Assembly (NCBI RefSeq): GCF_000969825.1
Contig: NZ_KQ033920.1
Coordinates: forward strand, 1,477,075-1,541,074
Length of the DNA: 64,000 bases
Origin: Parabacteroides gordonii MS-1 = DSM 23371
Lineage (GTDB): Bacteria > Bacteroidota > Bacteroidia > Bacteroidales > Tannerellaceae
Direction of reading: 5' to 3'
This document shows positions 7,325 to 20,541 of this stretch, piece after piece; position 1 is the stretch's first letter; each line of letters begins with the position of its first letter. Position numbers and translations under genes: made by a program. The notes under the pieces are model-generated. The model searched no databases. It saw only the letters and a list, made by a program, of their open reading frames with translations, and was not told the origin of the DNA.

Positions 7325-9673
7325 TTATTTCTTTTTTGACTTAGCGGCCGGAACCAGTTTCTTAAAGTTCTCGTCGTTGACAGAGAAGGAATAAGGAAGA
7401 TCTTCCGGATTAACGCCTCTGTTCAGGTTAGGTTTGTCACCCATCTTGATATCGAGCACGCCGCCTTTCAGCAGTTCGTTATGGTCGAGATAGTTCTTGG
7501 TGTAGTTCACGCCATTGAACGACATCGACTCGATATAGATATTCTTGTCGCTGTTTTCAGGGGCATTGATCACCAGGTTCTTTCCGTTCTCGAAATGCAA
7601 GGTCGCTTTCTTGAACAGCGGGGCACCCAGCACATACTGTGTCGTTCCCGGAGCTACCGGATAGAAACCGAGGGCTGAGAATACATACCAGGCTGAAGTC
7701 TGACCGTTGTCTTCGTCACCGCAATAGCCGTCGGGGGTCGGAGTGTACATTTTATTCATTACATCGTGTACCCAGTACTGCGCTTTCCAAGGTTCTCCGG
7801 CATAGTTGTACATGTAGATCATGTGCTGGATCGGCTGGTTACCGTGTGCATAGTTACCCATGTTCATGATCTGCATTTCGCGGATTTCGTGGATAACCTG
7901 TCCGTAGTAGCTGTCGTCGAACAATGGCGGAACGGCAAACACAGAGTCGAGCATCATAACGAAAGAGTCTTTACCGCCCATCAGGTCGATCAATCCCTGC
8001 GGATCATGGAACACAGACCAGGTATAATGCCAGCTGTTACCTTCCGTAAAGGCATCCCCCCATTTCAGCGGAGAGAACGGAGACTGGAACGTACCGTCGG
8101 CATTCTTTCCACGCATCAACTTAGATTCTTTATCGTAGAGGTTCTTATAGTTCATGGCACGTTTGGCATACAGTTCGAGCTCTTTCTTCGGACGTCCCAG
8201 CTCTTTTGCGATCTGGTAGATACACCAGTCGTTGTAAGCATATTCGAGTGTACGAGCTGCATTTTCATGGATCTTTACATCGTAAGGTACATAACCCAAC
8301 TTGTTGTAGTATTCATGTCCCAGACGACCGGTAGACGAAACGGTAGGATGTACGTTTTCTGTTCCGTGGATCAGGCCTTTATACATGGTTTCCAGATCGT
8401 CCACTTTCACTCCTTTCATATAGGCATCTACCAGAACGGAAGCCGAGTTATTACCTACCATGCAACCACGGTGGCCCGGACTTGCCCATTCGGGGAAGAA
8501 GCCGCTTTCTTTATATGTATTGATCAATCCTTCCTGCATTTCCTTGTTCATAGACGGGAACATCAGGTTCAGGAACGGAAACAGGGCACGGAAAGTATCC
8601 CAGAAACCGGTATCGGTAAACATATAACCGGGCAGTACTTCGCCGTTGTACGGGCTGTAATGAACTACATTGCCTGCTGCGTCGATTTCATAGAATTTAC
8701 GCGGGAAAAGCAGGGCGCGGTACATACAGGAATAGAACGTACGATACTGATCCAGCGTACCTCCTTCCACCTCGATCTTACCCAACACGTCGTTCCAGGC
8801 TTGTTTGCCTTTTGTCACCAGTGTTTCGAAAGAATCGTTACCCAGTTCCTTCATATTTACGGCAGCCTGGTCGAAGCTGATAAAGGAAGAGGCTACTTTG
8901 GCATGAACGATCTCGCCTTTCTTTGTCTTGAAACCGATTACGGCTCCCACATGCTTGTCGGTCTGTTCCTTTGCCCCTTCTTTCAAAGAGTTATCGGCAA
9001 AAGTAGCTTCGTAAGTGAAAGGTTTGTCAAATTCTATGATGAAATAGTTCTTGAAGTTTTCAGGAACACCTCCGCTATTCTTTGTAGAATAACCGATGAT
9101 CTTGTTTTCTTCCGGTATCACCTTAATGTATGAGCCATTATCGAGTGCATCGACTACGATGTAAGAATGGTCGTTTTCGGGGAAAGTGAAACGGAACAGG
9201 GCGGCACGGTCGGTCGGAGTCAACTCTGTGATCACATCGTGGTCGGCCAGGTATGCTTTATAGTAATAAGGTTTTACCACTTCGCTCTTATGCGAGAACC
9301 AGCTGGCACGCTTGTCCTGGTCGAACTCAGGAGCACCTACAACCGGCATGATGGCAAACTGTCCGTAATCGTTGATCCACGGGCTGGGCTGGTGGGTTTG
9401 CTTGAACCCTCTGATCTTATTCGCAGTATATACATACTGCCATCCGTCTCCCATCTTTCCCGTCTGGGGAGTCCAGAAGTTCATACCCCACGGACGGGCG
9501 ATGGCAGGATATGTATTTCCTGTTGACAACTCAAAAGAAGATTGAGTTCCCATCAGGGGCATTGCATACTCTACCGGATCGAATGCTTCATTCCCGGAAG
9601 CGGCCATAGCAGGTTTCCCGACACAGGCCAACATCGCGGCCAAAGCGAAAACCCATACACTTTTTCTTTTCAT
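7325..9673 (-). CDS. GH92 family protein with Gln in place of the catalytic acid
   Basis: This 782-residue protein has a signal peptide (to about AMA, residue 24) and no lipobox cysteine. The GH92 landmarks are present: FDPVEYAMPLMGT, FTDTGFWDTFRALFP and CGDEDNGQTSAWYVFSALGF, with Asp653 and Asp655 as likely base residues. The acid motif reads HGNQPIQH, so Gln613 replaces the usual Glu. In the characterised GH92 enzyme that removes mannose-1-phosphate caps, a Gln stands at this place, because a phosphate leaving group needs no protonation. Phosphomannan uncapping, or another linkage with a good leaving group, is therefore possible but unproven. It is the first gene of a pair with the downstream GH92, 12 bp away, and a promoter lies 56 bp upstream. 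Confidence 0.92.
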   Translation of the reverse strand: MKRKSVWVFALAAMLACVGKPAMAASGNEAFDPVEYAMPLMGTQSSFELSTGNTYPAIARPWGMNFWTPQTGKMGDGWQYVYTANKIRGFKQTHQPSPWINDYGQFAIMPVVGAPEFDQDKRASWFSHKSEVVKPYYYKAYLADHDVITELTPTDRAALFRFTFPENDHSYIVVDALDNGSYIKVIPEENKIIGYSTKNSGGVPENFKNYFIIEFDKPFTYEATFADNSLKEGAKEQTDKHVGAVIGFKTKKGEIVHAKVASSFISFDQAAVNMKELGNDSFETLVTKGKQAWNDVLGKIEVEGGTLDQYRTFYSCMYRALLFPRKFYEIDAAGNVVHYSPYNGEVLPGYMFTDTGFWDTFRALFPFLNLMFPSMNKEMQEGLINTYKESGFFPEWASPGHRGCMVGNNSASVLVDAYMKGVKVDDLETMYKGLIHGTENVHPTVSSTGRLGHEYYNKLGYVPYDVKIHENAARTLEYAYNDWCIYQIAKELGRPKKELELYAKRAMNYKNLYDKESKLMRGKNADGTFQSPFSPLKWGDAFTEGNSWHYTWSVFHDPQGLIDLMGGKDSFVMMLDSVFAVPPLFDDSYYGQVIHEIREMQIMNMGNYAHGNQPIQHMIYMYNYAGEPWKAQYWVHDVMNKMYTPTPDGYCGDEDNGQTSAWYVFSALGFYPVAPGTTQYVLGAPLFKKATLHFENGKNLVINAPENSDKNIYIESMSFNGVNYTKNYLDHNELLKGGVLDIKMGDKPNLNRGVNPEDLPYSFSVNDENFKKLVPAAKSKKK

Positions 9674-9728
9674 GATTTAGTTTTTATTTGGTTGAATAAC
9701 TAATTATACTCATTGATTATTATCAGTA

Positions 9729-9736
9729 CAAAGATA
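9729..9736 (-). promoter_or_regulatory. -7 box (TATCTTTG) upstream of the GH92 pair
   Basis: The box matches TAnnTTTG exactly. The nearest TTG-like -33 element (9762-9764) is 25 nt away, slightly too far, so only the -7 element is firm. Confidence 0.5.
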
Positions 9737-9807
9737 ACCAGATTTTTATAGCAGAAGTACACAATTTAAATTAATTGCAGGCGGCTACTTCTGAATAAGT
9801 GATAACG

Positions 9808-9835
9808 CCTTTCCTCCCCGCACAGGGAGAAAAGG
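9808..9835 (-). terminator. Hairpin downstream of the palindrome array
   Basis: An 11-bp stem (9808-9818 with 9825-9835) is fully paired only in a minus-strand transcript, where one position becomes a U-G wobble. That suggests it belongs to RNA reading leftwards from the 10066-12297 gene. No clear U-run follows, so its role as a terminator is uncertain. Confidence 0.4.
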
Positions 9836-9859
9836 CTGCTTTTCAGATAGAAGATCGTC

Positions 9860-10054
9860 ACATACGTATATGTATTCCAATCACTTACGTATGTAGAAGA
9901 TGGCTACGTACGTATGTAAACGGTAGTCAGGCAGTATGTAGGAGACAGTCGCATACGTATGGGGGTGCCGGCTGCATGCGTATGCAAGGGTTGGCTACAT
10001 ACGTATGCGGACACCTGCTACATACGTATGTAACGACCTTCCACATACGTATGT
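9860..10054. repeat. Array of nine 12-bp palindromes on an exact 23-bp period
   Basis: The consensus is ACATACGTATGT, with the TACGTA core starting at 9863, 9886, 9909, (9931, degenerate), 9954, 9977 (TGCGTA), 10000, 10023 and 10046. Eight 11-nt spacers separate the palindromes. Their sequences differ, though several end in GGCT or TGCT. The degenerate fourth unit is one base short. The array starts 11 bp after the stop codon of the 10066-12297 gene and ends before a hairpin, inside the 392-bp gap that precedes the GH92 pair. The palindromes and their spacing are better kept than the spacers, which points to selection on the palindromes. The array is far too short-period for CRISPR, and no cas genes are present. 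The function is unknown. Confidence 0.92.
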
Positions 10055-10065
10055 AGCTGGCATGG

Positions 10066-12297
10066 TTACCAAACAAAGGAAACAGAGATACCTGCCGGAT
10101 CGTTCTCGAACTTAAGCAAACAGGTTTTACTTGCTTCGTCCCATTCCGATACCGCTCCAGCGAGAGCCTGGCCGTTTGCATCTGACACAGAGACTTTTTC
10201 CGGTTTCTCCGGCAATAACACGCGCATCACATTGGTGGTATTAACCGGGCTTTTGGCAATAAAGGAATAGGCCTTTTTACCGGCTTTTTCTTCATACACA
10301 CGAGCTGCTCCACAAAGTACCTGCGGCTTGTCCTGATCCGGCACACGGCCGATATTGACAAGGAAAGCCTGCTCGCCCGGTTGAACGGTCTTTTCGTTTA
10401 GTACCGGTAGTTCGGGATCGAAGAGGTCGATCAACTTCCCTTTCACGGTATATGGTTCATTGCTGATCATGCCTTCATCCAGCACGGCAACCAGGTCATA
10501 AAAGCCTCTTTCCAGATAGAAGCAGTTCTTATACTGAAGATTTCCTGCTTTCGCTTTTTCTTCAAATAAGCGCTGTACCGTAGCAACATATTCTTTATCG
10601 GCATTCGCTTTCAAGACAAATTCTTTCGGATCCTGGCGTATGATGCAGACTGTTCCTTTCCCGTAAGTATATTCACCTTCTTTGGCATCTTTGTCTATCC
10701 CCATCAGGCTGAACAGGTGTTGTGAAGGTGTTTTATACTTTTCCGTATCCTGATTCCACCACTCCTGTACCGACTGGAAGGGATCGGTATCGCGGGTGCT
10801 GTAAACCAATACGCCACCATTCTTAACCCATTCGGCAATATATTGATGTGTTTCCTTCTCCAACGGTTTCATATTGGAATAGGTCATCAGCAATACTTTC
10901 GTGTTCTTCCAGGTTTCCGGATAAGAGACATTTTCCAGATGCAGCAGATGTACGGGAACCCCTCGTTTCAGGAATGGCAACGCCTGTCCGTAAAAGTTAG
11001 ACAACTGCGGGTCATCATAACCGGCAACCGGCTGGGGGGCACGCTGGAACATCAACGAGTTGGCCATTAATACGCTTATACCGGAAGAACCGGAAACCTT
11101 ATTGTCGGACAATGGCATATTATTCAGCGAATTGATCATCACCTGCATCTGTGTGGAATAGAAACGGGGGATGCGTGCTTTTTCTTCGCTGTTGGCACTT
11201 GTACGGTACAGGCCTTCGTAAATGCGATCCGGCCAGGGCATTACTTCGTAGTTGTTATTGTTCGGATACAACAACTTCGCGGTGAAGGTTGCCTGGTAGT
11301 TCTTCTTATAGTCAGCCCAGTCGCGAGGCCAGTCTTCAATCGGGTCGGTCAGGAAAAAGACCTTACGGCCTGTCGGAGCCGTCATCGATTCCATACAGCC
11401 ATATTCAAGGAAAGCCGTTTCAAAGACACGTTCTTTCGCTACTCCGTTGAAATAGTTCGGTTCGCGCGACGTACCTGTCCACACCTGGGCGATATACCCG
11501 TCCACACAAGGCAGAGAGGCCAGGCTTGCTTCGGGGCTGACGATCTGCCATTGCGAATAGTTCACCAACGAATGAGTGGGGACATAACAACGGACATCCA
11601 TTCCTTTACTTTTACCGTATTCCTTGGCATAGGTAAAACATTCGTTCAATGCACGGTAATACAAATGGTATTTCAGTTTATTGGAAAGGTAGGTATTCTC
11701 TGCCGACTCATGCTGCGGACGCCAGTCGAAACCGTAATATTCTTTCCACTCCCGTTTAAAGGCATCACTATATCCGCCACGGGCCCAGAACTCCGGTTCT
11801 TCCAGATAAATGGCATCGATACCGGCATCTATCACTCTCTTTATATGCTGTTCCTGCATATACTTGATGAAATTCTTCGAAGGAACAATATAGGGTACCA
11901 TGTGGCCATGCCAGATCGTATCCCCTTTCATCGTTACCTGTCCTTCATCCAGATGCCATTTGCCATCCCATTGGCCGGTAAAATAATCCTGATATTCTCC
12001 CCAGGCAATGCCCGTCATAAAATGGGTAGTGTAGCCTTTATCACGCCAGCTTTGTACGCGTTGTTCGAAAGTTAATCCCGAACGTTTCTCGGAAGGATTC
12101 CCCCCCACTCCATAGACGATGGAAACATCAGCCCGCACATCGGTAGTTGGTTTCCAGGGTTGTCCGGTTTGAAAGGCGGTTTTTTCCCGTCGTTCGGCAG
12201 GAGTTGTTTCCGTTCCCTTTTGCCCGGTCAGGCAGGAGATGGTTAACAGGGAAAAGGCCATACAACTCAATACTAGTTTTTCTACATTTGTCTTCAT
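10066..12297 (-). CDS. TIM-barrel glycoside-hydrolase-like lipoprotein, family not recognised
   Basis: This 743-residue protein has a lipoprotein signal (LLTISC near residues 17-22). The N-terminal half looks like a TIM barrel, with AGIDAIYLEEPEFWARGG near residue 160 placing acidic residues at a strand end, as in retaining glycosidases. The middle (about 400-560) resembles the GATase-like domain of beta-galactosidase-type enzymes (VLLMTYSNMKPLEKETHQYI, WVKNGGVLVYSTRD). The end is beta-rich. I do not recognise a defined GH family. It follows the SusC/SusD operon in the same direction across a terminator-like hairpin and has no evident promoter of its own. That makes a role in the same mannoside PUL likely, but the activity is not known. 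Confidence 0.7.
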   Translation of the reverse strand: MKTNVEKLVLSCMAFSLLTISCLTGQKGTETTPAERREKTAFQTGQPWKPTTDVRADVSIVYGVGGNPSEKRSGLTFEQRVQSWRDKGYTTHFMTGIAWGEYQDYFTGQWDGKWHLDEGQVTMKGDTIWHGHMVPYIVPSKNFIKYMQEQHIKRVIDAGIDAIYLEEPEFWARGGYSDAFKREWKEYYGFDWRPQHESAENTYLSNKLKYHLYYRALNECFTYAKEYGKSKGMDVRCYVPTHSLVNYSQWQIVSPEASLASLPCVDGYIAQVWTGTSREPNYFNGVAKERVFETAFLEYGCMESMTAPTGRKVFFLTDPIEDWPRDWADYKKNYQATFTAKLLYPNNNNYEVMPWPDRIYEGLYRTSANSEEKARIPRFYSTQMQVMINSLNNMPLSDNKVSGSSGISVLMANSLMFQRAPQPVAGYDDPQLSNFYGQALPFLKRGVPVHLLHLENVSYPETWKNTKVLLMTYSNMKPLEKETHQYIAEWVKNGGVLVYSTRDTDPFQSVQEWWNQDTEKYKTPSQHLFSLMGIDKDAKEGEYTYGKGTVCIIRQDPKEFVLKANADKEYVATVQRLFEEKAKAGNLQYKNCFYLERGFYDLVAVLDEGMISNEPYTVKGKLIDLFDPELPVLNEKTVQPGEQAFLVNIGRVPDQDKPQVLCGAARVYEEKAGKKAYSFIAKSPVNTTNVMRVLLPEKPEKVSVSDANGQALAGAVSEWDEASKTCLLKFENDPAGISVSFVW

Positions 12298-20440: not shown

Positions 20441-20541
20441 CTAATATCTGTGCAATGCCTATGGCACAAAAGTGCGACTGCTATGGCACAAATGTGCAGC
20501 TATAGTGGCACAGTTGTGCCATAAGCATAGCACAACAGCTA
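20441..20541. repeat. Array of about five 16-bp palindromes on an exact 22-bp period
   Basis: The consensus is TGGCACA-NN-TGTGCCA. GGCACA starts at 20463, 20485 and 20507, and an AGCACA half-unit starts at 20529. A right half TGTGC at 20449 gives a degenerate first unit in the same phase. The three central units keep the palindrome; the outer two each keep one arm. The spacers differ. The array begins about 20 bp after the stop codon of the GH38 gene and lies between it and the 22-bp-stem terminator, so it is probably transcribed as 3' untranslated RNA. It parallels the 23-bp array at 9860-10054 in design but not in sequence. The function is unknown. Confidence 0.88.

Follow-up and report, generated by a model that had tools for sequence, protein, structure and literature searches.

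The array and its neighbourhood

The window, the whole 64-kb stretch of DNA analysed here, carries an array of short palindromes at positions 9860 to 10054, in the gap between two genes of the minus strand. The upstream gene (10066-12297, minus strand) encodes a protein of 743 residues without a Pfam match at an E-value of 0.001, and the array begins 11 bp past its stop codon, following that stop on the minus strand as the original prediction had it. By eye, the 743-residue protein has a signal-like start, and its gene sits beside genes of glycoside hydrolase family 92 (GH92). The downstream gene (7325-9673, minus strand), 186 bp beyond the array, is a member of GH92, one of two GH92 genes downstream of the array according to Pfam; another gene in the window is presumably SusD-like, and GH92 and SusD-like genes fit a host of the order Bacteroidales. 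At 9807-9836, in the stretch that separates the array from the GH92 gene, a GC-rich inverted repeat that lacks a strong T run is visible by eye, and the terminator scan made no call on it; it is a neighbour, outside the array proper. One other genome (G023) has the same gene pair with 55 bp between the genes and no array.

The array is assigned to neither strand. It consists of nine palindromic units, eight full and one worn, each a 12-bp core (RCATACGTATGY) followed by an 11-nt spacer, with a period of 23 bp. Core starts fall at 9860, 9883, 9906, 9929, 9951, 9974, 9997, 10020 and 10043. Seven of the steps are 23 bp, and one, from 9929 to 9951, is 22 bp; it originates in the worn fourth unit (AGGCAGTATGT, 11 nt, 9929-9939). 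The original prediction described nine palindromes on an exact 23-bp clock, with the base missing from the short unit made up in the next step. The nine units and the period stand, but "exact" is one base too strong, because the missing base is never made up later and the total is 183 bp, or 8x23-1.

The eight full cores lie close to ACATACGTATGT; the palindrome is perfect over 12 bp in two of them and keeps five of six pairs in the other six. Mean pairwise identity is 83% among these cores versus 35% among the nine spacers, in agreement with the earlier statement that spacers differ while palindromes are kept. Twelve-mers with at least five of six palindromic pairs make up 0.47% of window positions, and from any start outside the array region at most two of nine slots in phase 23 are filled by palindromes. 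Searched with up to two mismatches, ACATACGTATGT has nine matches in the window, seven of them within the array; shuffled sequences had 1.98 on average and 6 at most.

Several familiar readings were set aside. CRISPR arrays have direct repeats of about 21-50 bp, spacers of like length and cas genes; with a core of 12 bp and a spacer of 11 nt, the present array falls outside that class. A tRNA reading found no support. A phage-borne origin was dropped after an exact two-unit probe gave no match in viral contigs.

A homologous site in conjugative transposons

Conjugative transposons carry an array between genes named traJ and traK, the names being those of a plasmid annotation. There are four distinct copies: three sets (L057/L108/L180, L056/L182 and L060/L181), each without a difference among its members in the 224 bases aligned, and L159. 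All their steps are 23 bp. Once identical rows from one and the same genome are excluded, pairwise comparison gives 0-3 differences at 60 core positions and 6-14 at 44 spacer positions. Between L056 and L060 the cores differ at 2 of 60 positions and the 60 bases past the last core at 15 of 60 (p 0.001); when the left flank is added, compared ungapped across an indel, the surrounding bases differ at 37 of 120 (p 6e-6). The original prediction expected both spacing and palindromes to be kept at homologous loci while spacers vary, which is what the traJ-traK site, the one homologous site compared, displays. Because pitch and cores are kept there while spacers drift, simple slippage is a poor account of the arrays, as had been proposed.

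L057 and L159 differ at none of 60 core positions, 9 of 44 spacer positions and 6 of 120 flanking positions, and five of the nine spacer changes fall in spacer 3. That spacer reads AATAGGCTGCT in one copy, and its counterpart, AGCAGCCTATT, is its exact reverse complement; the two arrays otherwise match. It is the one clear spacer inversion that we found. A second candidate, an apparently inverted block at the end of L221, was dropped since its spacers run the same way in L223.

The slot also shows turnover. Among the 30 best-scoring loci with the traJ-traK slot, three hold the array, and the other 27 have an empty slot of some 30 bp; the three are copies described above, taken from other records, and the 27 are not independent counts because many are alike. 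Two further loci (L210 and L211, in G591 and G731) have a different core, AAGGTAGCTACCTT, in the same slot, with three and two units. The transposon region also has four plasmid matches, with a query coverage of 36-37% in three and 15% in the fourth, which is consistent with a slot that lacks the array.

These comparisons bear on the reading of the arrays as neutral minisatellites, in which slippage and switches of template at the replication fork copy a palindrome, arrays are gained and lost, and no function is selected. Presence or absence at a site and differences in unit number would suit it, and template switching makes reverse-complement spacers. Slippage, however, would copy spacers along with cores, contrary to their low identity in the window; cores at the homologous site change less than neighbouring bases; and odd step lengths are rare. 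We regard a neutral minisatellite as unlikely.

The same core in other genomes

An exact two-unit probe, searched against one genome each of 84,980 species, matched 16 stretches in 12 assemblies as counted by contig name. The record titles of all 16 name Bacteroidales taxa. A looser probe matched 11 of 38 genomes of the genus, and its control pattern matched 1. Three of these genomes (G000, G014 and G021) hold arrays of the target core at unrelated loci, and seven more hold a single palindrome pair each. In G005, a separate dispersed element like ACGTATGTGCGTTGGCATTTTAACATACGT occurs at 11 places with a 26-bp period; its spacer is mostly conserved, which sets it apart from the free-spacer arrays.

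Across the order, the core pattern matched 5 of 393 genomes, at spacings of 23 bp (G000 and G423), 26 bp (G350), 25 bp (G394) and 22 bp (G157). The element in G157 is again a separate one: it is dispersed over 10 places, each with a pair of ATACGTAT palindromes at a distance of 22 bp, and its spacers are AT-rich. Another member of the order, G794, has the target core at 13 loci with a pitch of 22 bp and flanks common to several copies. In the host genome a search for multiple copies of the target core found a single locus, so the target copy itself shows no sign of dispersal.

Step lengths were counted in chains of ATACGTAT units, under a rule that admits steps of 21-24 bp only and demands at least three chained units. 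Of 27 sources entered, 24 gave arrays (L052, L061 and L067 fell out), and the window contributed five units. Within those limits the 116 steps comprise 95 of 23 bp, 20 of 22 bp and one of 21 bp.

Different cores at the same pitch

One scan required only that some 5-base arm recur together with its reverse complement, at any period from 12 to 60; it covered 1.82 Mb (1.824) from five genomes of the order: the 64-kb window plus 800 kb of G000, 400 kb of G014, 160 kb of G021, and 200 kb each of G672 and G642. It returned 37 arrays with many different cores, and in 27 of the 37 the smallest period was 21-24 or 42-47. Some of these 27 are not of the free-spacer type; L245:3427, for example, is apparently a plain direct repeat. 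The same scan of 250 kb of Escherichia coli K-12 gave four arrays, none with a period in either range, a modest control from one species because about 3.7 in-range arrays would be expected there at equal density. Shuffled sequence yielded three arrays, all for G014; in the first form of the scan, shuffles of G000 and G014 had given an array each, with periods of 22 and 58. Fewer arrays emerged when palindromes were scanned for more strictly.

The largest family in the host genome has the form GAAAC-N4-GTTTC with 8-nt loops, with 59 forward and 57 reverse matches against none for the control pattern, and it forms at least 33 loci among the matches listed. It is present in 24 of 38 genomes of the genus, and the control gave none in all 38. 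Steps between matched units in 32 arrays are 22 bp in 69 cases and 44 bp in three, with no other value, the pattern itself fixing the 8-nt loop so that the linker length alone was free to vary. The step, loop and flank analyses of this family use 32 of the 33 listed loci, leaving out C2:37438. One of its arrays, of three units (L139:1501-1562; G000 C1, about 2.05 Mb), lies in frame within a gene that presumably encodes a P-type ATPase. Four species (G000, G023, G021 and G004) have it at the same place, with arms identical between G000 and G023 and worn in G021 and G004; since it is common to all four, this array is old and no fresh insertion.

The window holds a second phased palindrome array, likewise assigned to neither strand, at 20449-20535, with a GGCACANNTGTGC-like core (GGCACA..TGTGC) and a period of 22 bp. 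The GGCACA/TGTGCC family has seven loci in the host genome including this one, and its control has none. Two further loci show mixed composition. At L222:1501-1780, arrays with cores AGATACGTATGT and GTCTCTATAGAGAC adjoin, both at 23 bp. At L072:6471-6660 (G000), TGCAACGTTGCA and TCGTACCCCTACGA palindromes alternate with a period of 42, twice 21. Arrays of the same layout built on different words elsewhere in the order point to a little-noticed repeat class.

Folding, placement and the level of action

Computed with RNA parameters, predicted folding of the target array is strong on both strands (z -6.1 and -5.7). The minus strand is predicted to form a long fold-back over 9877-10060, and the plus strand three hairpins over 9877-10060, the largest at 9965-10063. 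Such folding, together with a start 11 bp past a stop codon and a minus strand that gains more from its spacers (below), speaks for a string of RNA hairpins, 3' untranslated or intercistronic, that would protect or cut the message, one of the options in the original prediction.

Signs of selection on RNA pairing were sought in G-U pairs. In 19 arrays with same-direction neighbours, from which the sense strand was inferred, core pairs include 23 G-U against 36 A-C (p 0.12) and spacer-centred pairs 17 against 28 (p 0.14). RNA hairpins gain no support from this comparison, because the sense strand has no excess of G-U. No Rfam 15 family matches the 64 kb above its gathering threshold. No intrinsic terminator is called at the array; the scan of 9500-10300 made a single call, at 10269-10286, and it falls beyond the array.

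Placement relative to genes differs between families. Among 28 GAAAC arrays, 15 lie in same-direction gaps, 8 in convergent and 4 in divergent gaps, and 1 within a gene; in addition, the arrays of L132 and L152 overlap short ORFs (78 and 77 aa), treated as spurious. In 14 of the 15 same-direction gaps the array is closer to the 3' than to the 5' gene end, which favours a role in RNA. The direction of GAAAC linkers relative to transcription is nevertheless split, 4 one way and 5 the other, with 7 of 16 mixed or unclear. The 28 ATACGTAT arrays with both neighbours known comprise 19 between genes of the same direction, 8 convergent and 1 divergent, and they show no 3' preference, 9 of the 19 being nearer the 3' end. 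A passenger element that avoids promoters explains array placement as well as a role at the 3' end does. The G-U, orientation and terminator results lower the likelihood of RNA pairing, and with it the earlier suggestion of 3'-UTR hairpins for mRNA decay or termination; an RNA element now seems quite improbable to us.

Complementary spacers

Spacers carry a signal of their own. Within GAAAC arrays, 10 of 123 pairs of loops are reverse-complementary at 7 or 8 of 8 positions, against 2.4 by permutation, with none of 5000 permutations as high. Direct likeness is not raised (3 vs 2.5). The outer flanks of these arrays are complementary at 67 of 128 comparisons over the first four positions, versus 47.9 (p 0.0014); the effect peaks at the first position (23 of 32), and over twelve positions p is 0.011. 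Linkers hold one direction within an array, with 2.8 of 4 alike versus 1.8. In ATACGTAT arrays the self-complementarity of spacers is 41%, and 25% after shuffling, in 130 spacers from 31 arrays that are not independent.

With cores held fixed, real spacers were compared by RNA parameters with their own shuffles in 23 arrays, a number that includes homologous sets. Real spacers fold better, with a mean z of -2.1 on both strands; negative values come from 19 of the 23 arrays for the plus strand and from 18 for the minus strand, and real spacers do worse than shuffles in 4 and 5 of 23. Three of the four transposon copies (L056, L057 and L060) have a z near zero or positive. The target array scores a modest -0.93 on the plus strand and a clear -2.82 on the minus strand. 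When spacer halves were re-dealt within 24 arrays, spacer-centred and core-centred pairing each gave 170 of 348 against about 162 (p 0.11 each), so pairing across the spacer and pairing across the core are not separated. Complementary spacers are consistent with fold-back, and template switching during replication can also make them with no function needed.

Complementarity weighs as well on another option of the original prediction, a cooperative array of binding sites. Here a dimeric DNA-binding protein would sit on each palindrome, a pitch of about two helical turns would align neighbours, and the cores would differ by member of the protein family, the purpose being chromosome organisation or regulation. 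Cores conserved by letter, beyond mere pairing, a strict pitch and the absence of a sense-strand pattern all agree with it. Yet divergent promoter regions are poor in arrays, with 1 of 28 ATACGTAT and 4 of 28 GAAAC arrays, and binding sites leave the complementary spacers, the outer flanks and the inverted spacer unexplained. We consider a protein array somewhat unlikely.

Comparison with known repeats

Iteron and centromere arrays of plasmids place binding sites every two helical turns or so, at replication or partition loci and with a cognate gene. The present arrays share with them repeats at about two helical turns; they differ in being scattered, and no cognate gene was seen.

Porphyromonas belongs to the same order as the host of the array. 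In Porphyromonas gingivalis, BrickBuilt is a MITE minisatellite with a 23-nt tandem unit, intergenic and predicted to form long stem-loops; it has a leader and a tail with IS5-like inverted ends, occurs in 19 copies and was found only in P. gingivalis and P. gulae (PMC4596501). The original prediction knew of no named element of this design, which was not quite right: set in tandem, the printed BrickBuilt consensus AGAYCATARTATCCTCTCRTRTG contains, in our reading by eye, TCTCATATGAGA, a 12-bp palindrome with R=A, and an 11-nt spacer (PMC4596501). The main text of that paper has no word beginning with "palindrom". The target array shares the 23-nt unit with a palindromic core. BrickBuilt spacers, as far as the printed consensus goes, belong to that consensus, whereas those of the target are free. 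Several copies per genome, the BrickBuilt habit, contrast with one target-core locus in the host; in G794 the core has 13.

REP, BIME and REPIN sequences are likewise short intergenic palindromes with conserved ends, a free spacer and fold-back as a hairpin or clover (PMC3116915, PMC3733652, PMC2817692), and two alternative folds of this sort are described there for REPINs (PMC3116915). Fold-back of conserved ends round a free spacer is predicted for the present arrays as well. The arrays differ in having a fixed pitch of 22 or 23 bp, several units, and many core families of equal pitch. REP-type elements carry a GTAG or CGTC tetranucleotide at one foot, beyond the paired bases, and have a cognate RAYT gene flanked by their own palindrome. 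In the window, three of nine units have GTAG as a right foot and three others its complement CTAC as a left foot, so that 6 of 9 carry a GTAG foot when both strands are counted; GT, half of GTAG, lies inside the pairing core, and CGTC precedes unit 1 only. No REP-type foot (GTAG or CGTC) was seen by eye in GAAAC arrays. A RAYT/REP reading was rejected: the genome has one Y1_Tnp match, at L169:1350-1980, and beside it CCGTCGGTTTTAACCGACGG inverted repeats, not these cores, are seen by eye; no RAYT was seen adjoining the array. The C-terminal motif of that Y1 transposase, translated by eye, resembles YIKNQKEHH of subclass 1.2, as given in PMC6006769.

TAACTGA repeats of Beggiatoaceae, Cyanobacteria and some Bacteroidetes also form short intergenic arrays whose role is described as unsettled, but they are direct 7-nt repeats and not palindromes on a 22/23-bp pitch (PMC4679880). 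Among the papers listed by searches of the open literature, none has a title or opening lines of an abstract that describe a 22/23-bp phased palindrome class in Bacteroidales.

Proposed reading

We put at roughly 0.45 the probability of the following reading: the target array belongs to a class of small repeats of Bacteroidales, most of them intergenic, which are strings of palindromes with a fixed 22/23-bp pitch, cores uniform within an array and different between families, and free spacers, and which act through fold-back of DNA. The class, its pitch, its turnover, the conservation of cores at one homologous site and one exact spacer inversion are shown by the comparisons above; the role of the palindromes is the inferred part. 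We read the array as a DNA-level fold-back repeat that would work like a REPIN and have the unit design of BrickBuilt. Its palindromes may matter at the DNA level, as dyads where a strand folds back on itself, and the element could fold as one long hairpin or as a row of small ones. Since the pitch is equal and the cores are palindromic, units would stay in register wherever the strand folds. A putative machine that reads hairpins or dyads would keep cores and phase and sometimes flip or remove units, and spacers would serve as loops only. A search for an enzyme that mobilises the arrays found none. The host copy lies past a stop codon and short of the following gene, where it probably does little harm.

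A wider proposal, which we advance tentatively and think possible rather than probable, is that these arrays form a categorically new kind of bacterial repeat. What Bacteroidales would conserve in such dyad arrays is the pitch, 22 or 23 bp, and not the sequence; the arrays would be phase-locked and indifferent to the core. Cores would be undirected crossover or hairpin points, spacers would be flipped in place, and one machinery would handle many cores, BrickBuilt included.

A pitch that stays fixed while cores are exchanged points strongly to a single common mechanism. Should the class hold, recurring intergenic DNA of gut Bacteroidales that has so far been nameless would belong to it, and BrickBuilt, a repeat of an oral pathogen, would be one case of it. 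Annotation would then call for caution before an array of this kind is read as a terminator, an operator or a CRISPR-like locus.
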